Below are positions 331 to 28,623 of a stretch of 32,332 bases of DNA, one piece after another (position 1 is the stretch's first letter; the number at the start of each line of letters is the position of its first letter). The notes below the pieces were generated by a model. That model was not told the origin of the DNA, searched no databases, and saw only the letters and a list, made by a program, of their open reading frames with translations. The stretch covers positions 1-32,332 of the IMG/VR virus record IMGVR_UViG_3300024520_000318. The stretch is one strand, 5' to 3'. Position numbers and translations under genes: made by a program. The DNA comes from a virus.

Positions 331-361
331 AGGGCGAACGGTGCAAATGAGGTATCACCAT

Positions 362-375
362 TGATAAGTTATCAC
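362..375. promoter_or_regulatory. Operator-like dyad sharing a core with the 4.7 and 5.2 kb promoters
   Basis: TGATAAGTTATCA (362-374) is a perfect odd-centred 13-bp palindrome. The 11-mer TAAGTTATCAC at 365-375 recurs on the opposite strand at 4764-4774 inside a promoter element, and ten of its bases recur at 5193-5202. The shared word suggests one regulator reads all three places; this is inference. Confidence 0.35.
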
Positions 376-580
376 CTTGCTTTTCGGGTGGTCGAAAGTG
401 AGGGACCAGACCCCGCCGCCGGAATTTTCGACATGACCCCGCAAAATTTTTTTCGCGATCGCCGGACCAGGCGGCTCGATTTTTTTTTTTCACCGGGGGG
501 ATCTTTTCCAGGTTGCAGAGTACCAGTTTAGGTATGCAAGCTAACTGTATTGTATCGAGTGCTTCACCGGGGCGAATGAT

Positions 581-3623: not shown

Positions 3624-4202
3624 ATGGCAGACGACACCCCGACAACCGAAACCCCCGACGCCCCCGACGCGGCGCCGGCCACCGAAAAACAGACGGTCCC
3701 ATATGAGCGATTCGCGCAAAAAGTGGCAGAAATAAAAGCCCTTGAAACGAAATTGGCCGAAGCCGCCCAGTCTTCCGACGTTGCGGCGGCGTGGGAAACC
3801 AAACACAACGAGCTAAACGCCACGTTTGAAAGTGAGCGCGCGGCGTGGAACCAAAAAAGCGCGCTGTATCAAGTGGGGATCAACGATCCCGACGTTTCCG
3901 AGTTAGCCCGGTGGCGTTTCGAAAAAAGCGGATCGGAAGATTTCGGGCAGTGGTTAGAAACGGACGCGAAAAACGATCCGATTTTAAAAACCCACCTAAC
4001 GAAGCCCGAAGCGGCGCCCACGGCGGCACCCACGCCGGAAGCCACGCCGGCACCTAGCCCAAACACGGGCGCCAGATCAGCACCACCGCCCCGGGGTGAG
4101 TTTTCCCCGGAAGCGGTGCAGAATATGAGTATTGAAGAGATAAAAGCCAACTATGGAAAAATAGCGGGCGCGTGGGGCTATACGCCCCGGAAATTCAACT
4201 AA
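3624..4202 (+). CDS. Capsid scaffolding protein (probable)
   Basis: Scaffolding proteins guide capsid assembly and leave the procapsid. This 192-residue protein starts at an ATG after a good ribosome binding site (AGGAG, seven bases upstream). It has an acidic, Thr/Ala/Pro-rich N terminus and a helical segment at about 26-75 likely to be a coiled coil. After a mixed middle comes a Pro/Ala-rich linker (about 128-155) and a short C-terminal segment rich in basic and aromatic residues, the part that usually contacts the shell. Low complexity, high charge and position after the portal all fit a scaffold. No protease domain is visible. The stop overlaps the end of a convergent minus-strand gene by four bases, and the capsid gene is 1.1 kb downstream instead of adjacent. 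Confidence 0.75.
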   Translation: MADDTPTTETPDAPDAAPATEKQTVPYERFAQKVAEIKALETKLAEAAQSSDVAAAWETKHNELNATFESERAAWNQKSALYQVGINDPDVSELARWRFEKSGSEDFGQWLETDAKNDPILKTHLTKPEAAPTAAPTPEATPAPSPNTGARSAPPPRGEFSPEAVQNMSIEEIKANYGKIAGAWGYTPRKFN

Positions 4203-4495
4203 CGCCAACCCGGAAGATCTACGGGTTTTAAAAGGTTTTTAACCTCTAAAAACCGATCCCCTTCGAATATTAGGCGGGTCAAGTCCACCCATATTTCCTC
4301 AATTTCCGCATAATTTAAAGGCGTAGACTCTTTCTTTTTGTTTTGGTCTGAAAATTTTAGACTTTCCGCAATGCGCACGTTTCTACAATCCCTTATTATT
4401 AGATCTTTGGGTTCTTCCGACGAATTAGATTGAAATTGAATTCCAATACAATCACATTCCCATTTAACAAACCTTGATTTTATGGGGTTTTTCAT
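4199..4495 (-). CDS. Hypothetical protein of the antisense cassette, 98 residues
   Basis: I do not recognise this protein. It is the second gene of the left unit of the minus-strand cassette. Its ATG shares one base with the stop of the upstream 74-residue gene (TAATG), so the two are coupled; the frame continues upstream but a start there would lie inside that gene. The N-terminal part carries three cysteines, two as CDC near residue 15 and one near 38 (RDCRN). A Lys/Glu-rich middle follows, then an amphipathic helix around IEEIWVDLTRLIF. No signal peptide or membrane segment is seen. Base composition is more AT-rich than the flanking late genes, which fits a separately acquired moron. The gene ends four bases inside the scaffold gene with no terminator visible. 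Confidence 0.7.
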   Translation of the reverse strand: MKNPIKSRFVKWECDCIGIQFQSNSSEEPKDLIIRDCRNVRIAESLKFSDQNKKKESTPLNYAEIEEIWVDLTRLIFEGDRFLEVKNLLKPVDLPGWR

Positions 4496-4719
4496 TAGCG
4501 CTCCCCGGGGAGCGCGGAGTATGAGCGCCACGCTTCCGTGCTTTCTATCATAGCGCCGGCCAACTGACGGCAAGCGGAATCGATACGATCCCCGATTTCC
4601 GCGCGGGCTTCCGGCGCGGCTTTTTGTAGTTCCGCCTTTAAAGAAAAAACAAGTTCGAACGCCTTTTTTTCTTCGTTGTGGGCTTTTTCGTATTTTTCGT
4701 TTAGTTTTGCGAGGGTCAT
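4495..4719 (-). CDS. Hypothetical small helical protein of the antisense cassette, 74 residues
   Basis: Almost the whole protein is predicted helix by eye: charged heptad-like runs of Lys, Glu, Ala and Leu from residue 4 to about 68, suggesting a coiled coil or small helical bundle. It is the first gene after the promoter element at 4717-4782. The start is clear: AAGGAC followed by a spacer containing six A residues before ATG. The second gene of the unit begins at its stop codon. Function is unknown. Small all-helical proteins made from their own promoter inside a structural operon are often host-takeover or anti-defence factors, but nothing here proves that. Confidence 0.7.
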   Translation of the reverse strand: MTLAKLNEKYEKAHNEEKKAFELVFSLKAELQKAAPEARAEIGDRIDSACRQLAGAMIESTEAWRSYSALPGER

Positions 4720-4782
4720 TTTTTTAGTCCTTAGTGGCTGGGTACATCTACTTATAATCAGTAGTGATAACTTAATCCACCT
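4717..4782 (-). promoter_or_regulatory. Promoter/leader element, copy 1 of a 66-bp repeat
   Basis: Read on the minus strand, this element holds GGATTAAGTTATCA, a TATAAG -10-like box with a poor -35, and an AAGGAC ribosome binding site before the ATG. A twin at 5145-5210 differs at only two bases. The core on the plus strand is ATCAGTAGTGAT, an ATCA-N4-TGAT dyad lying immediately upstream of and partly across the -10, where a repressor would block transcription. The element serves the 74- and 98-residue genes. Confidence 0.7.
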
Positions 4783-4788
4783 CTAAAT

Positions 4789-4812
4789 AAAAAAAACCGC
4801 CCTTTCGGGCGG
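4789..4812 (-). terminator. Rho-independent terminator after the 103-residue gene
   Basis: On the minus strand CCGCCC-GAAA-GGGCGG (4812 to 4797) forms a six-base-pair stem with a GAAA tetraloop and is followed by eight T residues. It lies 23 bases after the stop of the gene at 4836-5147 and just upstream of copy 1 of the promoter element, so the two units of the cassette are transcribed separately. Confidence 0.9.
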
Positions 4813-4835
4813 CGTGGTTTGGGTTGCGGTGGGGT

Positions 4836-5147
4836 TTACATTCGAACTTCAAGGCCGGTTTGGGCTTTAATTATCTCTTTCAAACTTCCCGCGTAGACAT
4901 TGGAAACCTCAAAAACAGTTTCGGTATTTTTTCCCGCGCATAGTTGGCGGACGCTTGGCACCTTTGAAAAAGTCATAGAATAGGTGTCATTTTCGTTTAG
5001 AGTGATTTTTAGGTGGTTGGCCTTTTTGGGGTTTGTTCCAATTCTAAACGCTAACGCGTCAGGATAGGCTATAAGGTTTTTAGCTCCGATCATTTTTAAA
5101 GTGAACCCTAATTGTTTTGCGATAGTGTTTGCGGTTTCGTTTTTCAT
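4836..5147 (-). CDS. Conserved-type small phage protein, 103 residues, function unknown
   Basis: The sequence resembles a widespread family of about 100-residue phage and plasmid proteins of unknown role, with GAKN near residue 21, an F-x-IG strand, NHLKITL, then D-Y-x-x-x-F and a C-terminal TGL. This recognition is from memory and not confirmed. I chose ATG 5147, preceded by AAGGAC and an A-run, rather than a longer frame running to 5288 that would cross the promoter. It is the only gene of the right unit of the cassette, with its own promoter copy (5145-5210) and terminator (4789-4812). No membrane segment or enzyme motif is visible. A stand-alone promoter-gene-terminator unit is the standard form of a moron. 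Confidence 0.75.
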   Translation of the reverse strand: MKNETANTIAKQLGFTLKMIGAKNLIAYPDALAFRIGTNPKKANHLKITLNENDTYSMTFSKVPSVRQLCAGKNTETVFEVSNVYAGSLKEIIKAQTGLEVRM

Positions 5148-5210
5148 TTTTTTAGTCCTTAGTGGCTGGGTACATCTACTTATAATCACTACTGATAACT
5201 TAATCCACCT
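5145..5210 (-). promoter_or_regulatory. Promoter/leader element, copy 2 of the 66-bp repeat
   Basis: This element is identical to 4717-4782 at 64 of 66 positions. The differences are G4761 to C5189 and G4764 to C5192, so the dyad core reads ATCACTACTGAT, exactly the reverse complement of the copy 1 core. It carries the same -10-like TATAAG and AAGGAC ribosome binding site on the minus strand, and drives the 103-residue gene. Confidence 0.7.
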
Positions 5211-5232
5211 TTTTCGCTTTTTTATTTTTTCG

Positions 5233-5241
5233 TGATATGAT
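5233..5241 (+). promoter_or_regulatory. Candidate extended -10 promoter for the major capsid gene
   Basis: TGATATGAT matches an extended -10 (TG-N-TATGAT) about 90 bases before the capsid start; the -35 region (TTCGCT) is poor. The capsid gene lies beyond an antisense cassette, so a promoter of its own would make sense, but readthrough from upstream cannot be excluded. Confidence 0.35.
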
Positions 5242-5307
5242 CCTAAATGCCCGCCGGGTCGCGTCGTTAAAAGCGTTTTTGGGTACATCGAAAATTTTAA
5301 CTTTTAA

Positions 5308-5323
5308 CGCCGAAAATTCGGCG
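5308..5323 (+). other. Hairpin in the capsid mRNA leader
   Basis: CGCCGAA-AA-TTCGGCG is a perfect inverted repeat ending one base into the G-run (5323-5327) that serves as ribosome binding site for ATG 5333. It could protect the mRNA 5' end or tune translation of the capsid gene. It has no T-run and is not a terminator. Confidence 0.45.
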
Positions 5324-5332
5324 GGGGTATCT

Positions 5333-6247
5333 ATGCCTATTACTAATGCAGGTCTGATTCCAGATCTCCGACTAGCAACCGCACTCGATGCGGCCCTCAG
5401 AGTGATCCTTCACGACGAAATGAGCCTAAGAACAACCGGATCTATTTTGAACCTTGGTTCAATCAATGGCACCGGCGCCTCTGATAGTACGATCCGCTAC
5501 GCGGGCCTTGACGGTTTGGACCCTTTCGCCCCCGCCGGCGAGGCGGCAAACGTCGCGGAAACCGTATTCGTCACTAACTCCGCTCAAGTAGCCGTTGGAC
5601 GTTGCGCCCTTCGGCGTGATATTTCCGATCTCGCGGTCATGACCGGCCTATCTTCCGGGGATGTTGACCCTATGCGGCTCGCTCAAAGTATGGTTGGGGG
5701 CTATGAGCAATTTTTTAATATTTTAGCGGCTGCGGCTCTAAACACACTACCGACACTTGTCGGGGCTGCGGGAGTCGATTGTTCCGTAGACGATTTTTAT
5801 GACGCTATTTTTGCGCTTGAAATCGCCAGTGTTCCGGGCCCGTATACGTCCCTCCTTTCACCTACCCAATTCGCAAACTTTCAAGAGTCTTTACGGGCTG
5901 AAGGTGGCGCGGCTCAATGGATGCCCGCCACGGCTTCAATGTTGCAAATCAAGGGGCAGGGCTACATGGGCCAATTCCTGGGCGTTGATATCTACAAGTC
6001 CGATAAAGTACTTGTCGACGGCGGCGGGGACGCTCACGGCGGAATGTGGGGCTTAGGTTGCATGGGCGCAAAATACGGAACGGTGGTTAATCCCCTGGGT
6101 GGTTTTGTTACCTCGCCCGGTTCTGAAATTGTGGTTGAATTTGAGCGCGTGGCGGCTTCCGCAACTACTCAAATTGTTGGACACGGTTATTTAGGTCTAT
6201 CCGTATTAGAAGCCGCGCGCGGTGTCCAACTACGAACAGACGGATAA
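5333..6247 (+). CDS. Major capsid protein (HK97 fold, probable)
   Basis: The shell subunit: 304 residues, in the usual size range, downstream of portal and scaffold. I chose ATG 5333 because GGGGG stands five bases upstream; the frame stays open to 5237 but that part overlaps regulatory sequence. The protein starts with a helical segment rich in Leu and Ala, followed by an extended Gly/Asn-rich loop. It then alternates helix and strand with many Gly and Ala. The GYMGQFLGVDIYKSDKV stretch near residue 215 and the closing strands with GSEIVVEFERV are typical of the HK97 A-domain and P-domain end region in phage capsids. Length, composition and neighbours support the call; no sequence-level family match could be run. 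A structured RNA region follows the stop. Confidence 0.82.
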   Translation: MPITNAGLIPDLRLATALDAALRVILHDEMSLRTTGSILNLGSINGTGASDSTIRYAGLDGLDPFAPAGEAANVAETVFVTNSAQVAVGRCALRRDISDLAVMTGLSSGDVDPMRLAQSMVGGYEQFFNILAAAALNTLPTLVGAAGVDCSVDDFYDAIFALEIASVPGPYTSLLSPTQFANFQESLRAEGGAAQWMPATASMLQIKGQGYMGQFLGVDIYKSDKVLVDGGGDAHGGMWGLGCMGAKYGTVVNPLGGFVTSPGSEIVVEFERVAASATTQIVGHGYLGLSVLEAARGVQLRTDG

Positions 6248-15241: not shown

Positions 15242-17329
15242 ATGGCAGACGATCGCACGGTTTACAAGTTCGAAGGGGACGCGTCGGGCCTAATTCGCGC
15301 GAGTAAAGCCGCCAAAACTAGCATAAAATCCCTGGGCACAACGTCTAAAAAGACGGATACTCAGCTAAAAAATATGCGGGTTCAATCTACGCTTTTAAGC
15401 CGGAGCCTTTTAAAGTTAAACGCCGCGTTTATGGCCGGCGCGAAATCTTCGGGGATGTTTGCCGCCGCAACGCTAGCCGCCGGCGCCGCTATGGGTCGCT
15501 TTTTCCAAAATATGGCGGACGCTCAAAACGAACTATCCGATCTAAGTTCACGAACGGGCGTATCCACTAAAAGTTTAGCGGGGCTTAGGCTAGCCGCGAA
15601 GGGTTCCGGACAAGATTTTAAAGCGGTTTCTAGCGCGTTAAAACCGCTCGCCCTACGGCTAGGTCAGGCAAATTTAGGGATGAAAACCGCGATTTTAGGG
15701 TTTAAAGCCGTCGGGGTTACCTCGTTACGGGCGGCGGACGGTGGCCTAAAAAGCGCGGACGCGGTCCTTTTAGAAATGACCGAAACGCTATCCGGTATGG
15801 AAAACCCCACGGAACGAGCGGTGGCGGCGTCGTTGGCGCTAGGGAGCGCGGGAACCAAATTGGTTCAGGCGTTGGGGGGTGAGAGTTTAAAGGAGTTTTC
15901 TGACGCGGCGGAAAAATTCGGGATGGACACCGGGCCGGCGGCGGCGCGGGCGGCGGACGAATGGCAACGGTCAATGGCAAACCTGGATTTGGTTATGCGT
16001 CCGTTCACCACCGATGTAATGGTTTGGGCTACCCGCCAAGTCAATAATTTTTCGTTGGCGTGGGTTTATTTGTCGACCCTTTTAGAGGAGTTGAGCAAAA
16101 ACATACTTCCCAATATGGGCAGCGCGCTCCTTTTAGCGTTCGTGGATTTGAACATTAAAGCCGTGGGCTATGCGGATAGCATTTTACAAACGTTTATGGG
16201 CGCCGCCGAAGGGTACGCAAAACTCATTGAACTAATCACCGGAAACACGGCGATTTCAGATAAGGTGTCCGAATATTCCCTCAAAATGAAAGACGCTGCC
16301 GACGGGATCAAAAAGTATTGGGACGGGGTAAAGGAAGACATAGGGACGAATTCAGAACTAGGTAAATCATTCGAAAAAGCCACGGAAAAGGCACAAGAGT
16401 TTTGGGATTGGCAGAACAAAATTTTAGAGCAAAGGGCGGGGGGAGGCTTGCCCACGCCGGACGGCGCCAGCGGCGGCGGGTGGGAAGATATAGATCTTTC
16501 CGCTTCCGGCGGTGCGGGCATTGTTGAACACGGCGACGGGTTAGGTATAGATCTTTCCGCTTCCGGCGGGAAATTAATAGAGATCCACGATCAAGCGTTG
16601 GAAAAATTAGGCGAAACATCCGAAATATTAGACGGAATCACGGGCCAAATGACCGATCTAACCGATCCCACCGGCCTATTTAGAGACATTTTAGGCGAAA
16701 TTTCGGGAACGATGGAAGCGATCGCGGAAGCCGATTTTTCTACGTTAGAGGGTACACTAGGTGCGGTTTCCGCCGGGTTTAAATCGCTCGGTAACATCAT
16801 GAAAGGCGTTATTGATCAGCAAATACGCGCGAATGATGAACTAACGGAAAAACAGAAAAAGAACCTGAAAATACTTTTTGCCATACAAAAAGCCAGTGCG
16901 ATTACTTCGATCGTAATCGACACCGCCAGCGCAATAGTGCGGGCGCTTGCGGAATTAGGCCCGGTGGCTGGGGGTATCGCGTCCGGATTTATCGCCGCCA
17001 CGGGGATCGCCCAGGCTGCCACCGTTGCAAGCCAAAAACCACCCTTTCATATCGGGGGGATTATCCCCGCCGCCCCTGGGCGTCAGGGCGTCCAAATCAA
17101 CGCGCTACCCGGGGAGGCGGTGTTAAACCGGGACGCCACGGCGGGGTTAGGTGCGGAAGGGGTGGCGGGGCTAAACAGCGGAAGAGGGGGTTCAAGCCCC
17201 GTTATGGTCGAAATGGTCTATAAGCACCGCGTGTTTGATGTTTTCGTGTCAGATAATATTTCGAAGGGCGGCCCATTGTCGGACGCGATAAATTCAGGGC
17301 GGCGAGTAGGCCACCGGTCAAGGGGTTAA
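15242..17329 (+). CDS. Tape measure protein
   Basis: A 695-residue, mostly helical protein that fills the tail tube and sets its length. The start is ATG 15242, two bases after the chaperone fusion stop, with GCGGGG upstream, rather than an in-frame GTG at 15221. The N-terminal half has long Ala/Lys/Leu helices with a hydrophobic patch near 65-85 (SGMFAAATLAAGAAMGRFF). A Gly/Ser-rich segment around 405-445 carries a duplicated IDLSASGG unit. The C-terminal part has a long hydrophobic region (SAIVRALAELGPVAGGIASGFIAATGIAQAATVAS, split by Gly) and the F-H-x-GG-I ... PGEAVLNRDAT motif found at the end of many tape measures. The short length for a siphovirus suggests a tail of roughly 100 nm, by the usual 1.5 angstrom per residue rule. 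Confidence 0.92.
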   Translation: MADDRTVYKFEGDASGLIRASKAAKTSIKSLGTTSKKTDTQLKNMRVQSTLLSRSLLKLNAAFMAGAKSSGMFAAATLAAGAAMGRFFQNMADAQNELSDLSSRTGVSTKSLAGLRLAAKGSGQDFKAVSSALKPLALRLGQANLGMKTAILGFKAVGVTSLRAADGGLKSADAVLLEMTETLSGMENPTERAVAASLALGSAGTKLVQALGGESLKEFSDAAEKFGMDTGPAAARAADEWQRSMANLDLVMRPFTTDVMVWATRQVNNFSLAWVYLSTLLEELSKNILPNMGSALLLAFVDLNIKAVGYADSILQTFMGAAEGYAKLIELITGNTAISDKVSEYSLKMKDAADGIKKYWDGVKEDIGTNSELGKSFEKATEKAQEFWDWQNKILEQRAGGGLPTPDGASGGGWEDIDLSASGGAGIVEHGDGLGIDLSASGGKLIEIHDQALEKLGETSEILDGITGQMTDLTDPTGLFRDILGEISGTMEAIAEADFSTLEGTLGAVSAGFKSLGNIMKGVIDQQIRANDELTEKQKKNLKILFAIQKASAITSIVIDTASAIVRALAELGPVAGGIASGFIAATGIAQAATVASQKPPFHIGGIIPAAPGRQGVQINALPGEAVLNRDATAGLGAEGVAGLNSGRGGSSPVMVEMVYKHRVFDVFVSDNISKGGPLSDAINSGRRVGHRSRG
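16489..16569 (+). repeat. Two 24-bp direct repeats inside the tape measure gene
   Basis: The same 24 bases, beginning TATAGATCTTTCCGCTTCC, occur at 16489-16512 and 16546-16569. They encode IDLSASGG twice, 19 residues apart. The repeat lies in a Gly/Ser-rich linker, where insertion or deletion by recombination would keep the frame and change protein length slightly. Confidence 0.9.
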
Positions 17330-22895: not shown

Positions 22896-23288
22896 ACCAA
22901 GCCCGATCGCGTCGATCGTGTTGTGGTTTTTTATGGACACCACCGCCAGAATTTCCTCTTTCGTTAGCTCGTTAAAAATTCGGTTTCCGTGGATGTTTTT
23001 GGGTACTTGCCCCTTCCATTCCGCCGGTGAAACCCCCCGCGCTTGCACCGCTAGCGCCTTGATCTTGCTCACCACCGCGAGTAAATCCCCCACGTCTTTG
23101 TGTTGTTTCCGTTTCGTCGGATACAAAACCGGCGATTCAATCACTAGACGCACCGCCCCCACGCGGTCAACCACGCGGAAAACTTCGGGGTTTTTTAAGT
23201 CGTCGGCGAATAAAAGACGCCCGCCGCCCCACAACGCGATCGCGCTTTTATGCACGCCGGGATCTATGGTGACTAAGTCTATTTCCAC
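22848..23288 (-). CDS. RuvC-like Holliday junction resolvase
   Basis: A 146-residue protein with an RNase H-like fold, expected to cut four-way junctions made during replication and recombination, and so resolve branched DNA before packaging. Acidic residues: TIDPGVHKS near the N terminus (Asp), VIESP (Glu) in the middle, and NHNTIDAIGLGLW near the C terminus (Asp), the order seen in RuvC-type resolvases. GTG 23288 with AGAGG nine bases upstream is the likely start; a longer in-frame ATG at 23336 lies inside the upstream gene. It is the last gene of the leftward replication operon and overlaps the preceding methyltransferase stop by ten bases. The end overlaps the convergent holin candidate. 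The catalytic site is inferred from motif spacing. Confidence 0.8.
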   Translation of the reverse strand: MEIDLVTIDPGVHKSAIALWGGGRLLFADDLKNPEVFRVVDRVGAVRLVIESPVLYPTKRKQHKDVGDLLAVVSKIKALAVQARGVSPAEWKGQVPKNIHGNRIFNELTKEEILAVVSIKNHNTIDAIGLGLWVLGRLGRGGRRGR

Positions 23289-23824
23289 GAAACAACCTCT
23301 AATTCTGTGGGTCCATTGTGGAGCGCATCCCACCAAAAAAAGCCGTATGCTGAAGAGTCTGTTTTTCCGCCGGTGAAGCTAGGACGTTCAGACAAAACGA
23401 AAACCTTCCGGCACGGGTTAGCTTTCCAAAACCCCGCGCGGCGTTTGCTTTCTAAAAATCCCAACCGCAGCAAAAAACAAACGTGTTGATCGGTGCATTT
23501 TAGCGCGTGTTCTACATGAGCCTGGGCGTTGAAATAGGGGGGGTTTCCAACTATCCAATCCGGGGCGTTAGGGGGTAATACGCCCAGAAAATTGCACACG
23601 GCGGAACCCACCATTTTTAAGGCCGGCGCCGCCGGGTTTAAATCGATCGCTACAACCTGATCACTTTTACGGACCAACGCGCAAACGAACGCTCCGCCAC
23701 CGGCGGACGGCTCTAAAACTAGATCGTTTGGTTGTATCGGTAGCAAATCCACTAGAAACGACGCGAGTTCAAACGGCGTATAATACGCGTCTAAAAGGAT
23801 CGGCGGTTTGTTCAACGTTCCCAC
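23279..23824 (-). CDS. DNA adenine N6-methyltransferase, gamma-class order
   Basis: A 181-residue SAM-dependent methyltransferase. The N-terminal YYTPFELASFLVDLLP is the motif X region, followed by motif I LEPSAGGGAFV (SAM binding) and motif IV NPPYFN (catalytic, amino-methylation). Motif order X-I-IV is that of TaqI-like gamma-class enzymes. The small size and lack of a clear target domain suggest a solitary phage methylase that protects the genome. The start is GTG 23824, with GGGGGG about nine bases upstream; an ATG at 23875 would overlap polymerase by 64 bases and adds an Arg-rich tail. The target sequence cannot be read from the protein. GATC is very frequent in this window, but NPPY enzymes need not be Dam-like. 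Confidence 0.85.
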   Translation of the reverse strand: MGTLNKPPILLDAYYTPFELASFLVDLLPIQPNDLVLEPSAGGGAFVCALVRKSDQVVAIDLNPAAPALKMVGSAVCNFLGVLPPNAPDWIVGNPPYFNAQAHVEHALKCTDQHVCFLLRLGFLESKRRAGFWKANPCRKVFVLSERPSFTGGKTDSSAYGFFWWDALHNGPTELEVVSWK

Positions 23825-25551
23825 GGTAGCAACCCCCCGCCGGCGTCGTAAACCGGCCCTGCTTTTTTGCTCCAAACACGCGATAAATACGCGGAAGCGC
23901 CGATCTTAACATCGGGGATCCATTCGGTCATAGTGTCGATCATGACCCGGCTTAGTTCCTGGGCGGCTCCGGCGGCTTTTTCTTCGGGCGCCTCGATTAT
24001 TATTTCGTCGTGTAAAAACGCGACGGGGCGCGAGCCGTATAGGGGGCTTTTTTTGTCGGTGTAGCAAGCGCGCGACACGTTGAAAAGCGCGTGGAGCGCG
24101 CCATCGGCGGTCAACCCTTGAAACAGCGTGTTAGCGGCCTGGGTGTAGGTGCACCCGCCGCGCACCCGCCCGGATTTAAATTGGGTAATTTCGCACGGTC
24201 CCCACGTTGTTTTGTTTGAGATATGCGCAAAGTATTTTGCCATTTCCGGCCACGTTTTCAGCCACGCCGCGCGGATCTCTTTGGCGTCATCGTTGGAAAC
24301 CTCTAAACCATACCCCCGCGCGTAATCCCGAAACACGCCGGCGCTTAGCCCGCCGGGGAACCCGTAATTCGCGACCTTGCTAAACTGCCGGTACGCTGGC
24401 GGGTCTTCCGGGTTCAACCGCGCGGCAACCTCTAGATGCAGATCGCGCCCCTCGTTTACGGCGTCGGCTATCGCGGATGTCTTGAACATCCAAAGGTGGA
24501 TCTGGCCTAATGCAACTAACTCGATTTGATCGTAGTCGCATAGAGCGTAAACGAAGCCCGGGCGGGGTTCGAAAACCTCGCGGAAACCACCACCGCGCGG
24601 GGGGTTTTGCATGTTTGGTTTCCGGCAAGATGTCCGCCCCGTCTTAACCAAAACGTTGTATTGAGGGTGAACCGTCGCCCCGCCCTGTAAAATTGGGGCG
24701 TAGGTGGTGGCTAGTTTATCCGCAAAACGACTATCGGCGTAGGCGACTAGCGCCGGGTTGCCTGAATTTTTGAGGGTTTCCCCGTCGGTTTTGGTGGCGC
24801 CTTTATCGGTCCTGGGCGGGGTTCCGTCGTAGGCGCCTAGCACGATTTCCCGAAGTTTTTTAACGTTGCGGGTTCCGTTATCCCGCAAAATGCCTAGCCC
24901 CCGCGCCAATTCCCGGCCTTTTTCAACATCCACCGCCACCGCCGCCAACCAATCCGCCGCGCGTTGGGGGTTGATCCGCATCCCGTAGATACTGATCAGG
25001 TGAAGCGCCCAGGCGGCGCAATTTCGGGCGGCGGTCCTTTCTATCGGGTAGTTTTGTTTCTTAAACACCGCGCGGGTGTAAACGACGTCGTTTAGCGCGT
25101 ATTCCCGGGCGTCCGTAGGCCAGTCCCCCGGATCTATTCCGTCCAATTCGGCGTAACGAAGCCGCCAAATATCCTCACCTTGTTTGCCCGACATATCCGT
25201 TTTAAGGTATTTTTTGACCAACGCGGCAAGCGAAAACCGCCGCCGGTCAAGATCCCCCGCTTCAATAGCGATCAATTTTTCCGTCGTCATAGTGTCCGCG
25301 ATCCGCCCGTCGGCGTATGCCTGGAAAATTTCGGGGATTAATTCGGGGAATTCCGCCGCCAAACACCCGAAATCGTAGGCGGGATTATGCCCAATGATTA
25401 GATCCTGACTTCTAAATAGGTCCACGAACGCCGGCAAGCCCCGCCGGCCTAACAAAATGGGCCGGGTATCATCTACCGCGTAGCAAACCGACACCACGCG
25501 CGGCGCCAACCGGCGCCCTATTTTATACGTTTCTAAGTCAAAAAAGAGCAC
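23812..25551 (-). CDS. polA-like: DNA polymerase, family A, with 3'-5' exonuclease
   Basis: A 579-residue replicative polymerase. Exonuclease: FDLET (Exo I, D and E at the N terminus), HNPAYDF (Exo II) and YALNDVVYT (Exo III). Polymerase: TGRTSCRKPNMQN, motif A CDYDQIELV, motif B (O-helix) RQFSKVANYG, and motif C FLHDEIII. Motif B aligns R, K and Tyr with E. coli R754, K758 and F762, so the 762-equivalent is Tyr, as in T7 and many virulent aquatic phages. Motif A has Val where most have Arg after IEL, and the usual LIYG after motif B is FPGG. I chose GTG 25551, with GGGGGG upstream, because the longer frame to 25755 runs through the ssDNA-binding gene and has an Arg-rich, uncharacteristic start. 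No 5'-nuclease domain is present. Confidence 0.93.
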   Translation of the reverse strand: MLFFDLETYKIGRRLAPRVVSVCYAVDDTRPILLGRRGLPAFVDLFRSQDLIIGHNPAYDFGCLAAEFPELIPEIFQAYADGRIADTMTTEKLIAIEAGDLDRRRFSLAALVKKYLKTDMSGKQGEDIWRLRYAELDGIDPGDWPTDAREYALNDVVYTRAVFKKQNYPIERTAARNCAAWALHLISIYGMRINPQRAADWLAAVAVDVEKGRELARGLGILRDNGTRNVKKLREIVLGAYDGTPPRTDKGATKTDGETLKNSGNPALVAYADSRFADKLATTYAPILQGGATVHPQYNVLVKTGRTSCRKPNMQNPPRGGGFREVFEPRPGFVYALCDYDQIELVALGQIHLWMFKTSAIADAVNEGRDLHLEVAARLNPEDPPAYRQFSKVANYGFPGGLSAGVFRDYARGYGLEVSNDDAKEIRAAWLKTWPEMAKYFAHISNKTTWGPCEITQFKSGRVRGGCTYTQAANTLFQGLTADGALHALFNVSRACYTDKKSPLYGSRPVAFLHDEIIIEAPEEKAAGAAQELSRVMIDTMTEWIPDVKIGASAYLSRVWSKKAGPVYDAGGGLLPWER

Positions 25552-26154: not shown

Positions 26155-27825
26155 TTACTGTCCTTTTCTGGTTTTGGGGCTATCCCCGGTGGTTAAAAAC
26201 GTGGCTACGTTAAGTTTTTGAGGCGTCCCCTGGGTTTGTTCGATGTATTCCGCGTGGGTTTTGGCGCGCTTCACCGCGTCCCCGAAATCGAAAAATTCCC
26301 ACCACGCCGCGTCCCCCGTGAATCCCGCGCGGTGGTTTCTTCCGATCAGTTGTTCCCACGTTGCGCCGTTTGCGGGGGGTTCTATCACGAAACACCGGCT
26401 AAACGCCTGGAGGTTTCGCCCCTTCCCGTGGACCGCTATAGAAGCCGCGCGGGTTTTGTCGGGGGTGGGTGGTAGCGATCCGGCGCCGTGGGTTTCTAAT
26501 CCCACGCTGGCGAGGGCTAACTCTACAGCGCGGGACGAATACCAAACGATCGCCGGATCGGTCAGATCATATATCCAATCGATCACAAATTGTATTTTTT
26601 CGGTGCAAATCCAGACCGGGGACGGTTGCGGGTTCGCGCGGTGTTTTATTTCGTCCCATAGACGCACCGCGCGGCGTAGTTCATCGTTCCCGCCGCCCTT
26701 CCGGCTCCAATCCATTACCAGTTTAGGGCTATCCCGCCCTTCCCTGGGCGAATACCTCAAAATTTTACTGACACGGCGGTTTAAATCCCGGCGCACTTCT
26801 AACCATTCGAGATCTTCACCGCCCGGTCCCCAGTCCCACCGGTAAAAAAATCCGGTGGATAGGTTTTTAAATGCGCGGCTTTTCGTGGAAGCGTCGGCGA
26901 GGGGTTCACCGTCGGGGGTTTCCCATTTGTCGCGTAGGGTCTTTAAAGCCCGTGACACCGCGTCAGAGTGGGGCGGGCGGTGTTTTATGAGGTAAAGGGA
27001 GGCGTCGCACGAACCCCGCCGGGTGGACACCACGCCGGGGGTTGTGGTGAGCCGCTCCCGAAACGCGCGGCGGATCGTTTCACGGTTGGCCGGCGTTAAT
27101 TTGTGTTGGCTGGACCACCGGACCAAATAGGCCAAACGGTTTAGATCGCTCTGGTTTGGCTCCCCGTCCGGGTCGATACACGCCGCCCACCGCTCTAATT
27201 CGTAACGGTTTAGGGGGATCGGGGTCCGTTCCCGTAGAGCTAACTCTAAAAGGTGGGCGTAATCGAGTAGACTTTTAGACGTTATGGTCCCCGATAGGGC
27301 TACAAAACTGCACCGGTTGTTATGGAAGTAGCGCAAAAATCGACGCGTGCGGGCGGCGGTTTTATGTCTCAAATAATGGGCTTCGTCGGCGATGATTAGA
27401 TCGGGTTTGATCCGATCTAAAATGTCCGTTTGAGTGGATAAAATCCCATATGAAAGCACCCGGGGCGGGGTAAAGCGGAAAAATTCCGCCCAGGTTTCCG
27501 CCTCGTTTTCCATTTGTTGGACCAATGCGGGTGGGACTATTATCAACGGGTTTTTCGCGTTGGCGGCGCCGGCGGCGAGCAACGCAACCAACGTTTTTCC
27601 TGAACCAACGTTCATTGAACAAAACGCACCGCCGAAAAGGCTAATCGTTTCCAGCGCCGCGCCCTGGATAGGCCGAAGAACCCCGCCGGTGGATAACTCG
27701 CGCGTCCATTTTTCGGCAAGTTCCGGCGAGCCGCTCGAAACCACGCGGGGAAGAGCTAGTATCCGTTCCAAATCCGACGGAATAGCGCGCCGGGGAAGGT
27801 TGGCTAAATGTTGATCAAGGTCCAT
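26155..27825 (-). CDS. SF2 DEAH-type helicase (replication)
   Basis: A 556-residue protein with an SF2 motor. Motifs: a Q-like LRPIQ at about 50-54, Walker A NVGSGKT (72-78), motif Ia IVPP, Walker B DEAH (147-150), motif III ALSGT (176-180) and motif VI QLIGRNHRAGF near residue 500. The separation between the two RecA-like halves is filled by an Arg/Trp-rich insert (about 230-400). The arrangement is close to the SNF2/Rad54-like phage helicases that unwind or remodel branched DNA. It starts 11 bases inside the upstream methylase gene and ends four bases before the ssDNA-binding protein gene, so it belongs to the same operon. Its partner roles (origin melting, fork reversal) cannot be told from sequence. 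Confidence 0.88.
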   Translation of the reverse strand: MDLDQHLANLPRRAIPSDLERILALPRVVSSGSPELAEKWTRELSTGGVLRPIQGAALETISLFGGAFCSMNVGSGKTLVALLAAGAANAKNPLIIVPPALVQQMENEAETWAEFFRFTPPRVLSYGILSTQTDILDRIKPDLIIADEAHYLRHKTAARTRRFLRYFHNNRCSFVALSGTITSKSLLDYAHLLELALRERTPIPLNRYELERWAACIDPDGEPNQSDLNRLAYLVRWSSQHKLTPANRETIRRAFRERLTTTPGVVSTRRGSCDASLYLIKHRPPHSDAVSRALKTLRDKWETPDGEPLADASTKSRAFKNLSTGFFYRWDWGPGGEDLEWLEVRRDLNRRVSKILRYSPREGRDSPKLVMDWSRKGGGNDELRRAVRLWDEIKHRANPQPSPVWICTEKIQFVIDWIYDLTDPAIVWYSSRAVELALASVGLETHGAGSLPPTPDKTRAASIAVHGKGRNLQAFSRCFVIEPPANGATWEQLIGRNHRAGFTGDAAWWEFFDFGDAVKRAKTHAEYIEQTQGTPQKLNVATFLTTGDSPKTRKGQ

Positions 27826-28429
27826 TTAAAACCGCCCCCCATTGCCTCGCCATAGCGCGGGCAATTCCTTCGTATGTTTTGCTCCTTTCTTTCCAACGTT
27901 CCGGGCTTGGGCCGAGCCTATTTTGTCCGGAATCCGTTTGATTACTCCATCGGTTTTTTCCGTTCACTATTCGCGGCGGGGCGTATTTAGTCCCTACCAA
28001 AACCGGAAGGTTTTTTAGCCAAAGGCCCGTTTTTTTGCTCGCGTCGTCCCCGAAATCGTACGGTTGTATGTATTGATCGGCTTTTCGTATGCGGGTGGAT
28101 ATACAACCCACGGGATTTTCGATCGCTATGTAGGGGACCGGCGCCGACATTAACCGCCGCACGAATTTAAGGGCTTTTTCTGTTTTTTCCGCCCGTCCAG
28201 GTACTCGTTTATTCCAATGAAGGCCGGAACTACATAAATAAGTGCAGGGCGGGTGGGCGATCATGAGATCCCAACCGTCTGCCATTACCTCTAAAATATC
28301 ACCCTTGATATGGTAGGGGCTTCCGATATCGCTCCCCTGTAAATCGCAGGAATACGCGGAAAAGCCTAGTTTCCTGAATTCGGACATAACGGCGCCCGAC
28401 GATTCGCAGCCGATTAAAACCCGCCTCAT
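27815..28429 (-). CDS. Cytosine DNA methyltransferase-like protein (phage type)
   Basis: A 204-residue protein. The start MRRVLIGCESSGAVMSEFRKLG gives the SAM-binding glycine-rich motif I, HPPCTYLCSSG holds the PPC of motif IV (catalytic Cys), and IENPVGCIST holds ENP in the place of the ENV motif of C5-cytosine methyltransferases. The later QPYDFGD ... KKTGLWLKNLP is typical of the common short phage dcm-like family. It lacks a large target recognition region, so its site is unknown, and some family members have not been shown to methylate. The start is ATG 28429, one base inside the upstream stop (TAATG) with GAGGGGG before it; a longer ATG at 28480 is rejected. It partners the adenine methyltransferase in possible self-protection. 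Confidence 0.82.
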   Translation of the reverse strand: MRRVLIGCESSGAVMSEFRKLGFSAYSCDLQGSDIGSPYHIKGDILEVMADGWDLMIAHPPCTYLCSSGLHWNKRVPGRAEKTEKALKFVRRLMSAPVPYIAIENPVGCISTRIRKADQYIQPYDFGDDASKKTGLWLKNLPVLVGTKYAPPRIVNGKNRWSNQTDSGQNRLGPSPERWKERSKTYEGIARAMARQWGAVLNGP

Positions 28430-28623
28430 TAGATCCCCCTCATATTTAGCCAACGCAACCCCGCGCGGGTGATTTTCCACCCCTCGCGGCGGTTACCCTC
28501 TACGAAGCCCTTTTTTTGTAGCCGCTCCAATGATGACCGGGGCAAGCGCGCGCGGCGCCCGCTTTGCAAATTTTGCATAATCGTCGTTTGGATCGGCGTT
28601 AGTTTTTTCCGCTTCCACGTCAT
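28429..28623 (-). CDS. Small winged-helix-like DNA-binding protein, 64 residues
   Basis: A short, very basic protein with a pattern of winged helix-turn-helix domains: PIQTTIMQNLQSG, then RSSLERLQKKGFVEGNRREGWKITRAGLRWL, where the helix and the wing (GW-K-I-T-x-A-G) match the MarR/PadR-like end segment. It starts with a four-base ATGA overlap and its stop shares one base with the methylase start. A role in regulating the operon or in DNA binding at the fork is likely but unproven. Confidence 0.7.
   Translation of the reverse strand: MTWKRKKLTPIQTTIMQNLQSGRRARLPRSSLERLQKKGFVEGNRREGWKITRAGLRWLNMRGI

Follow-up and report, generated by a model that had tools for sequence, protein, structure and literature searches.

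In lambda-type operators, a 17-bp site overlaps the −35 and −10 hexamers and carries TATCAC-like half-sites, one half being nearer to the consensus than the other. Minute hairpin-loop inversions of plastid DNA are also known. In yeast, inversion of the spacer between inverted repeats through template switching is documented, and every such inversion seen had arms longer than 9 bp (PMC8604942). Among repeated phage elements, the PeSLs of T4-type phages are described as joining a terminator-type stem-loop to an early promoter and recurring between small accessory genes (PMC4503421). The SAS/ESAS of cluster K mycobacteriophages are short repeats directly upstream of the start codons of many small genes, and about half of the SAS have an added imperfect inverted repeat whose spacer varies (PMC3203893). 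The locus described here is one of a few related promoter cassettes that have been duplicated and bear an operator-like site, the centre of which occurs in both orientations, and is a variant of these known repeated phage regulatory cassettes.

The window, which is the whole IMG/VR record of 32,332 bp, contains a 67-nt direct repeat with two mismatches (4716 to 4782 and 5144 to 5210), and a search of the whole record found no third place for the repeat. A preliminary description had reported that the segments 4717 to 4782 and 5145 to 5210 match at 64 of 66 positions and that their core is exactly inverted, and both statements were borne out by a repeat search and a base-by-base comparison of the copies. 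The mismatches, 4761 (G) versus 5189 (C) and 4764 (G) versus 5192 (C), convert ATCAGTAGTGAT to its own exact reverse complement; the 12-bp operator core of copy 1 (4757 to 4768, minus strand; coding strand ATCA-CTAC-TGAT) is the exact reverse complement of that of copy 2 (5185 to 5196, minus strand; coding strand ATCA-GTAG-TGAT). The outer ATCA/TGAT forms a dyad and reads the same after inversion, so the true change is confined to the inner four bases (GTAG/CTAC on the plus strand). ATCANNNNTGAT occurs four times in the window, versus 0.12 occurrences expected.

Both copies end exactly at the start codons of minus-strand ORFs and include a ribosome binding site (RBS), in agreement with the earlier proposal that they are promoter-leader units of two separate genes. 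The predicted parts of copy 1 (4717 to 4782, minus strand) are a −35 hexamer TGGATT (4779 to 4774), a 17-bp spacer, a −10 hexamer TATAAG (4756 to 4751), a leader, the RBS AAGGAC (4732 to 4727), and the ATG (4719 to 4717); in copy 2 (5145 to 5210, minus strand), the −35 TGGATT (5207 to 5202), the spacer, the −10 TATAAG (5184 to 5179), the leader, the RBS (5160 to 5155), and the ATG (5147 to 5145) follow in the same order. Behind copy 2 lies a 103-aa gene (4836 to 5147, minus strand) of PHROG family phrog_9437 (unknown function), and an intrinsic-terminator-like hairpin (4796 to 4813, minus strand) lies between this gene and copy 1. Behind copy 1 are a 74-aa gene with no family (4495 to 4719, minus strand) and a 98-aa gene (4199 to 4495, minus strand) that overlaps its end; from these overlapping coordinates, the two are probably on one transcript.

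The stretch holding the 74-aa and 103-aa genes has the scaffold-position gene on one side and, on the other, the probable major capsid protein gene (5321 to 6247, plus strand), which is divergent from the cassettes. The two small genes are opposed to the late genes and run the same way as the replication block (PolA, helicase, exonuclease, and primase). The capsid gene, which served to find relatives, was identified by its position after terL and the portal-position and scaffold-position genes and has matches in relatives only, with none in PHROG or Pfam. Its own leader (5225 to 5325), just downstream of a TATxAT-like −10, contains the pattern CGG(G/C/T)TC(G/A)C..CGTTAA..G.G, which is conserved across seven genomes with capsid identities as low as 57%, and has no Rfam match. 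Elsewhere in the window, AAAAGATCCTTTTTT blocks (GATC inside A/T tracts) are repeated in the noncoding left end (200 to 330), and two DNA methyltransferase-like proteins are encoded (27815 to 28480, phrog_757; 23279 to 23875, phrog_799).

Relatives were found with capsid, portal, and cassette-gene searches. Those bearing the unit were a near-identical record, L003, and four more distant IMG/VR contigs with ten further copies (four in L004, one in L005, one in L012, and four in L021). With L003 counted as the same population as the window, the 12 copies come from five distinct genomes. Each of the ten further copies precedes a small gene, either in the corresponding slot ahead of the capsid gene or in an adjoining cassette, and the more distant capsid relatives L006, L007, and L011 have no minus-strand genes in that slot and no unit. 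Wider searches gave no DNA match among 50,697 phage records and no capsid match, either by tblastn in phages or in GTDB genomes. A broad scan for AAGTTATCANNNNTGATTA plus AGGA returned, beyond the known members, matches that look like chance. Scans of viral and bacterial contigs for the S-T-A-S core gave no additional relatives, and the few GTAC matches among them were in sequences without detectable homology to the capsid, terL, portal, or cassette proteins of this phage.

The element, also designated by its sequence AGTTATCANNNNTGMTTA, comprises a putative sigma-70-like promoter with the dyad AGTTATCA-NNNN-TG(A/C)T in its 17-bp spacer, a leader, and an RBS. All 12 copies align gap-free around AGTTATCA-NNNN-TG, with invariant flanks and four variable central bases, and the suggestion that the dyad is a conserved operator-like site was upheld. 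An alternative dyad axis can be drawn (for example, CAGTAGTTATCACCACTG in copies b and d of L004), so the exact half-sites are uncertain. The predicted L012 promoter is near-consensus (TTTACA-17-TATAAT, 11 of 12 positions matching), and copies b and d of L004 have an exact TTGACA as the −35.

In L004 and L021, the upstream terminator also belongs to the element. The same 23-bp terminator stands before each of the three internal L021 cassettes, which indicates that the terminator is multiplied in one block with the promoter, leader, and RBS; these terminator-promoter blocks are identical in L021 and near-identical in L004. At 1107 to 2420 of L021 and 4105 to 4940 of L004, terminator-promoter-RBS blocks of ∼100 bp precede different small genes, some of them paralogous (the MTNEQKKQ... 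family). Repetition of unit and terminator as blocks is also what cassette shuffling would produce, and the elements might then be mere recombination or duplication boundaries with repeated leaders and RBSs, the dyad not being bound by protein. This is improbable, because L005, L012, and copy a of L021 have the AGTTATCA dyad in common with the other copies although their leaders have diverged, and because a related dyad occurs upstream of terL without a cassette.

The TATCAC-like dyad overlapping the −35 and −10 hexamers, with one half nearer to the consensus than the other, appears to resemble lambda-type operators but has a 4-bp centre, in contrast to the 17-bp lambda operator, and no CI/Cro homologue was found. 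As with the PeSLs, promoter and stem-loop cassettes multiply and shuffle as blocks, here in L004 and L021, and in the window a terminator lies between the two units. The window phage is not T4-type, its 32-kb record having unrelated structural genes as well as PolA and a tape-measure tail gene, and it further differs in the operator-like dyad within its promoter spacer. SAS/ESAS are likewise short repeated elements at the start codons of small genes, but ESAS use 17-bp inverted repeats and a 13-bp GGGATAGGAGCCC adjoining the start codon, whereas the window leaders read ..CACTAAGGACTAAAAAAATG and the dyad is short, with a 4-bp centre, in the spacer of a predicted sigma-70 promoter.

Taken together, these features make it reasonably probable that each of the two elements is a copy of a regulatory unit that can be duplicated (a sigma-70-type promoter with an operator in its spacer, a leader, and an RBS), is bound by a dimeric protein, and has a centre orientable either way. 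Each unit would drive one small gene or gene pair from the minus strand, the early-type one, within the late gene block. A dimeric DNA-binding protein would bind the outer AGTTATCA....TG(A/C)T half-sites, and it would probably be a repressor because the site lies inside the 17-bp promoter spacer, where occupancy of the dyad may block RNA polymerase. The 4-bp centre would not be fixed and could read GTNG or, in the opposite orientation, the complement CNAC. Copy 2 would keep the ancestral orientation and copy 1 the reversed one, through one spacer-inversion event or two G-to-C changes; with the half-sites kept, affinity or contact may shift slightly. Against the reading as regulatory units, both window copies fell below threshold in a simple sigma-70 scan, their −35 TGGATT and −10 TATAAG being weak, no regulator was found, and only five distinct genomes carry the element. 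MerR-type promoters have a 19- to 20-bp spacer, and MerR-type activation was set aside on the basis of the 17-bp spacing. An RNA hairpin was rejected also, since the dyad lies upstream of the predicted transcript start and Rfam finds nothing.

A third operator-like site, GGTGATAACTTATCAATGGTGATAC (352 to 376, minus strand), lies upstream of terL. On the plus strand at 352 to 376, its dyad reads TTGATAAGTTATCA, which recurs upstream of terL in L012 (248 to 261) and L021 and is 450 to 500 bp from terL in the window and L012. That three genomes have a related dyad ahead of terL suggests that one shared regulator may have several sites. A 64-aa winged-helix-like protein (28429 to 28623, minus strand) is a candidate only for this regulator. 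It has weak matches to Mrr_N, MksE, and S19e and belongs confidently to no family; its predicted fold is H-H-E-E-H (pLDDT 77), and the best fold matches, to MarR-type repressors, are not significant (E ∼0.1). No homologue was found in the examined part of L007, a genome without the unit.

The preliminary description had raised the prospect of both core orientations in related phages, and both were found. On the coding strand, the core is CTAC in copy 1, GTAG in copy 2 and copy a of L021, GTGG in L005, GCTT in L012, CAAC in copy a of L004 and copy c of L021, CCAC in copies b to d of L004, and TCAC in copies b and d of L021. One orientation (GTAG/GTGG) is thus represented in the window, L005, and L021, and the other (CTAC/CCAC/CAAC-type) in the window, L004, and L021, with GTGG (L005) and CCAC (L004) forming a second exact complement pair; GCTT and the two TCAC copies are outside a strict G..G / C..C rule. 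Orientation normalization lifts the core information from 2.6 to 4.7 bits, with GTNG in five of seven distinct cores and a column-shuffle P value of ∼0.007 (∼0.01 without copy 1), but the distinct cores were treated as independent, which they are not, and the GTNG/CNAC orientation rule is suggestive only. Over 19 bp (AAGTTATCAGTAGTGATTA), copy 2 is identical to copy a of L021, the capsid-proximal promoter of that contig, so from sequence comparison GTAG is likely ancestral and the CTAC of copy 1 likely derived.

Because the record is metagenome derived and near-identical repeats 428 bp apart can misassemble, an assembly or consensus artifact at one of the units was considered. The identical sequence of L003 at both sites speaks against a one-off assembly error; L021 shares the ancestral state of copy 2, and the flanks of the units are unique genes. 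An artifact is therefore very unlikely. L003 and the window are identical over 15.5 kb except for two tight clusters, at 5482 to 5557 (15 substitutions, capsid gene) and 15598 to 15622 (5 substitutions, tape-measure gene), a pattern that points to patches acquired by recombination or to an assembly of mixed strains. The two assembled consensus records have the same core states, with no phase variation between them, but their near-identity places them in the same population, and the agreement says little about stability.

The element is real, and stepwise substitution and a one-step flip account for the reversal of its core at similar odds. The preliminary description favored physical inversion. 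The exact symmetry on which it drew was confirmed: a 66-bp stretch allows 19,305 double substitutions, of which 65 have the same result as inverting a segment somewhere within it and a single one (5e-5) amounts to the inversion of a 12-bp quasi-palindrome, and given that both changes fall in the variable 4-bp core, 1 in 54 double changes gives an exact reversal. Such symmetry is unlikely by chance. A one-step flip, in which a template-switch or hairpin event of the kind that inverts inverted-repeat spacers turned round the 4-bp loop within the ATCA/TGAT dyad of copy 1 after duplication, is a serious possibility. The remaining 62 bp are otherwise unchanged, both changes are G-to-C transversions, the GTGG of L005 is likewise the exact complement of the CCAC of L004, and template switching has been documented to invert the spacers of inverted repeats (PMC8604942). 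As in the yeast and plastid cases, the loop is replaced by its exact reverse complement with the arms untouched. However, the stem has 4 bp and ∼−1 kcal/mol, compared with arms of over 9 bp in yeast (PMC8604942), and here the site is a functional-looking operator. In sister cassettes elsewhere, ordinary substitutions account for the changes in this segment, and some cores depart from the orientation rule. Site-specific inversion is unlikely, as recombinase sites need more than 4 to 12 bp, and the gene products scanned, which were not every ORF, gave no recombinase-family match.

Two successive substitutions under operator selection, with a fully palindromic core (CTAG or GTAC) as the intermediate and an asymmetric centre then restored in reverse for a regulator that prefers GTNG/CNAC centres, are a somewhat stronger contender, still short of even probability. 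Where sister cassettes differ from one another, the substitutions lie within the stretch from −35 to −10 (2 of 2 between copies 1 and 2, 3 of 3 between copies a and b of L004, and 5 of 5 between copies b and c of L021, or 6 counting the base adjoining the −10 hexamer). In L004 and L021, this plain-substitution diversification is confined to the spacer and −10, and concentrated change there thus needs no inversion. Cores within the family also move by single steps (CAAC/CCAC and GTAG/GTGG). On the other hand, this route needs two independent transversions, and the palindromic intermediates, named beforehand as evidence that would count against inversion, were not found in related phages, with only five distinct genomes to draw on. 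Over the whole window, CTAG is over-represented (87 occurrences versus 43 expected), and avoidance of that intermediate was rejected as an explanation; GTAC, the other intermediate, is depleted (52 versus 92). It is doubtful that the centre is flipped repeatedly, such that one regulator would bind the same half-sites at several promoters while promoter strength would be set by a 4-bp orientation that a single template switch across very short arms can reverse.

With half-sites fixed and the operator centre varying, these 12 duplicated phage promoters from five genomes form a compact natural series. Copies 1 and 2 of the window, which differ by reversal of the centre only, provide a ready test of the effect of centre orientation on repressor binding, and also of whether 4-bp arms suffice for loop flipping by template switching.
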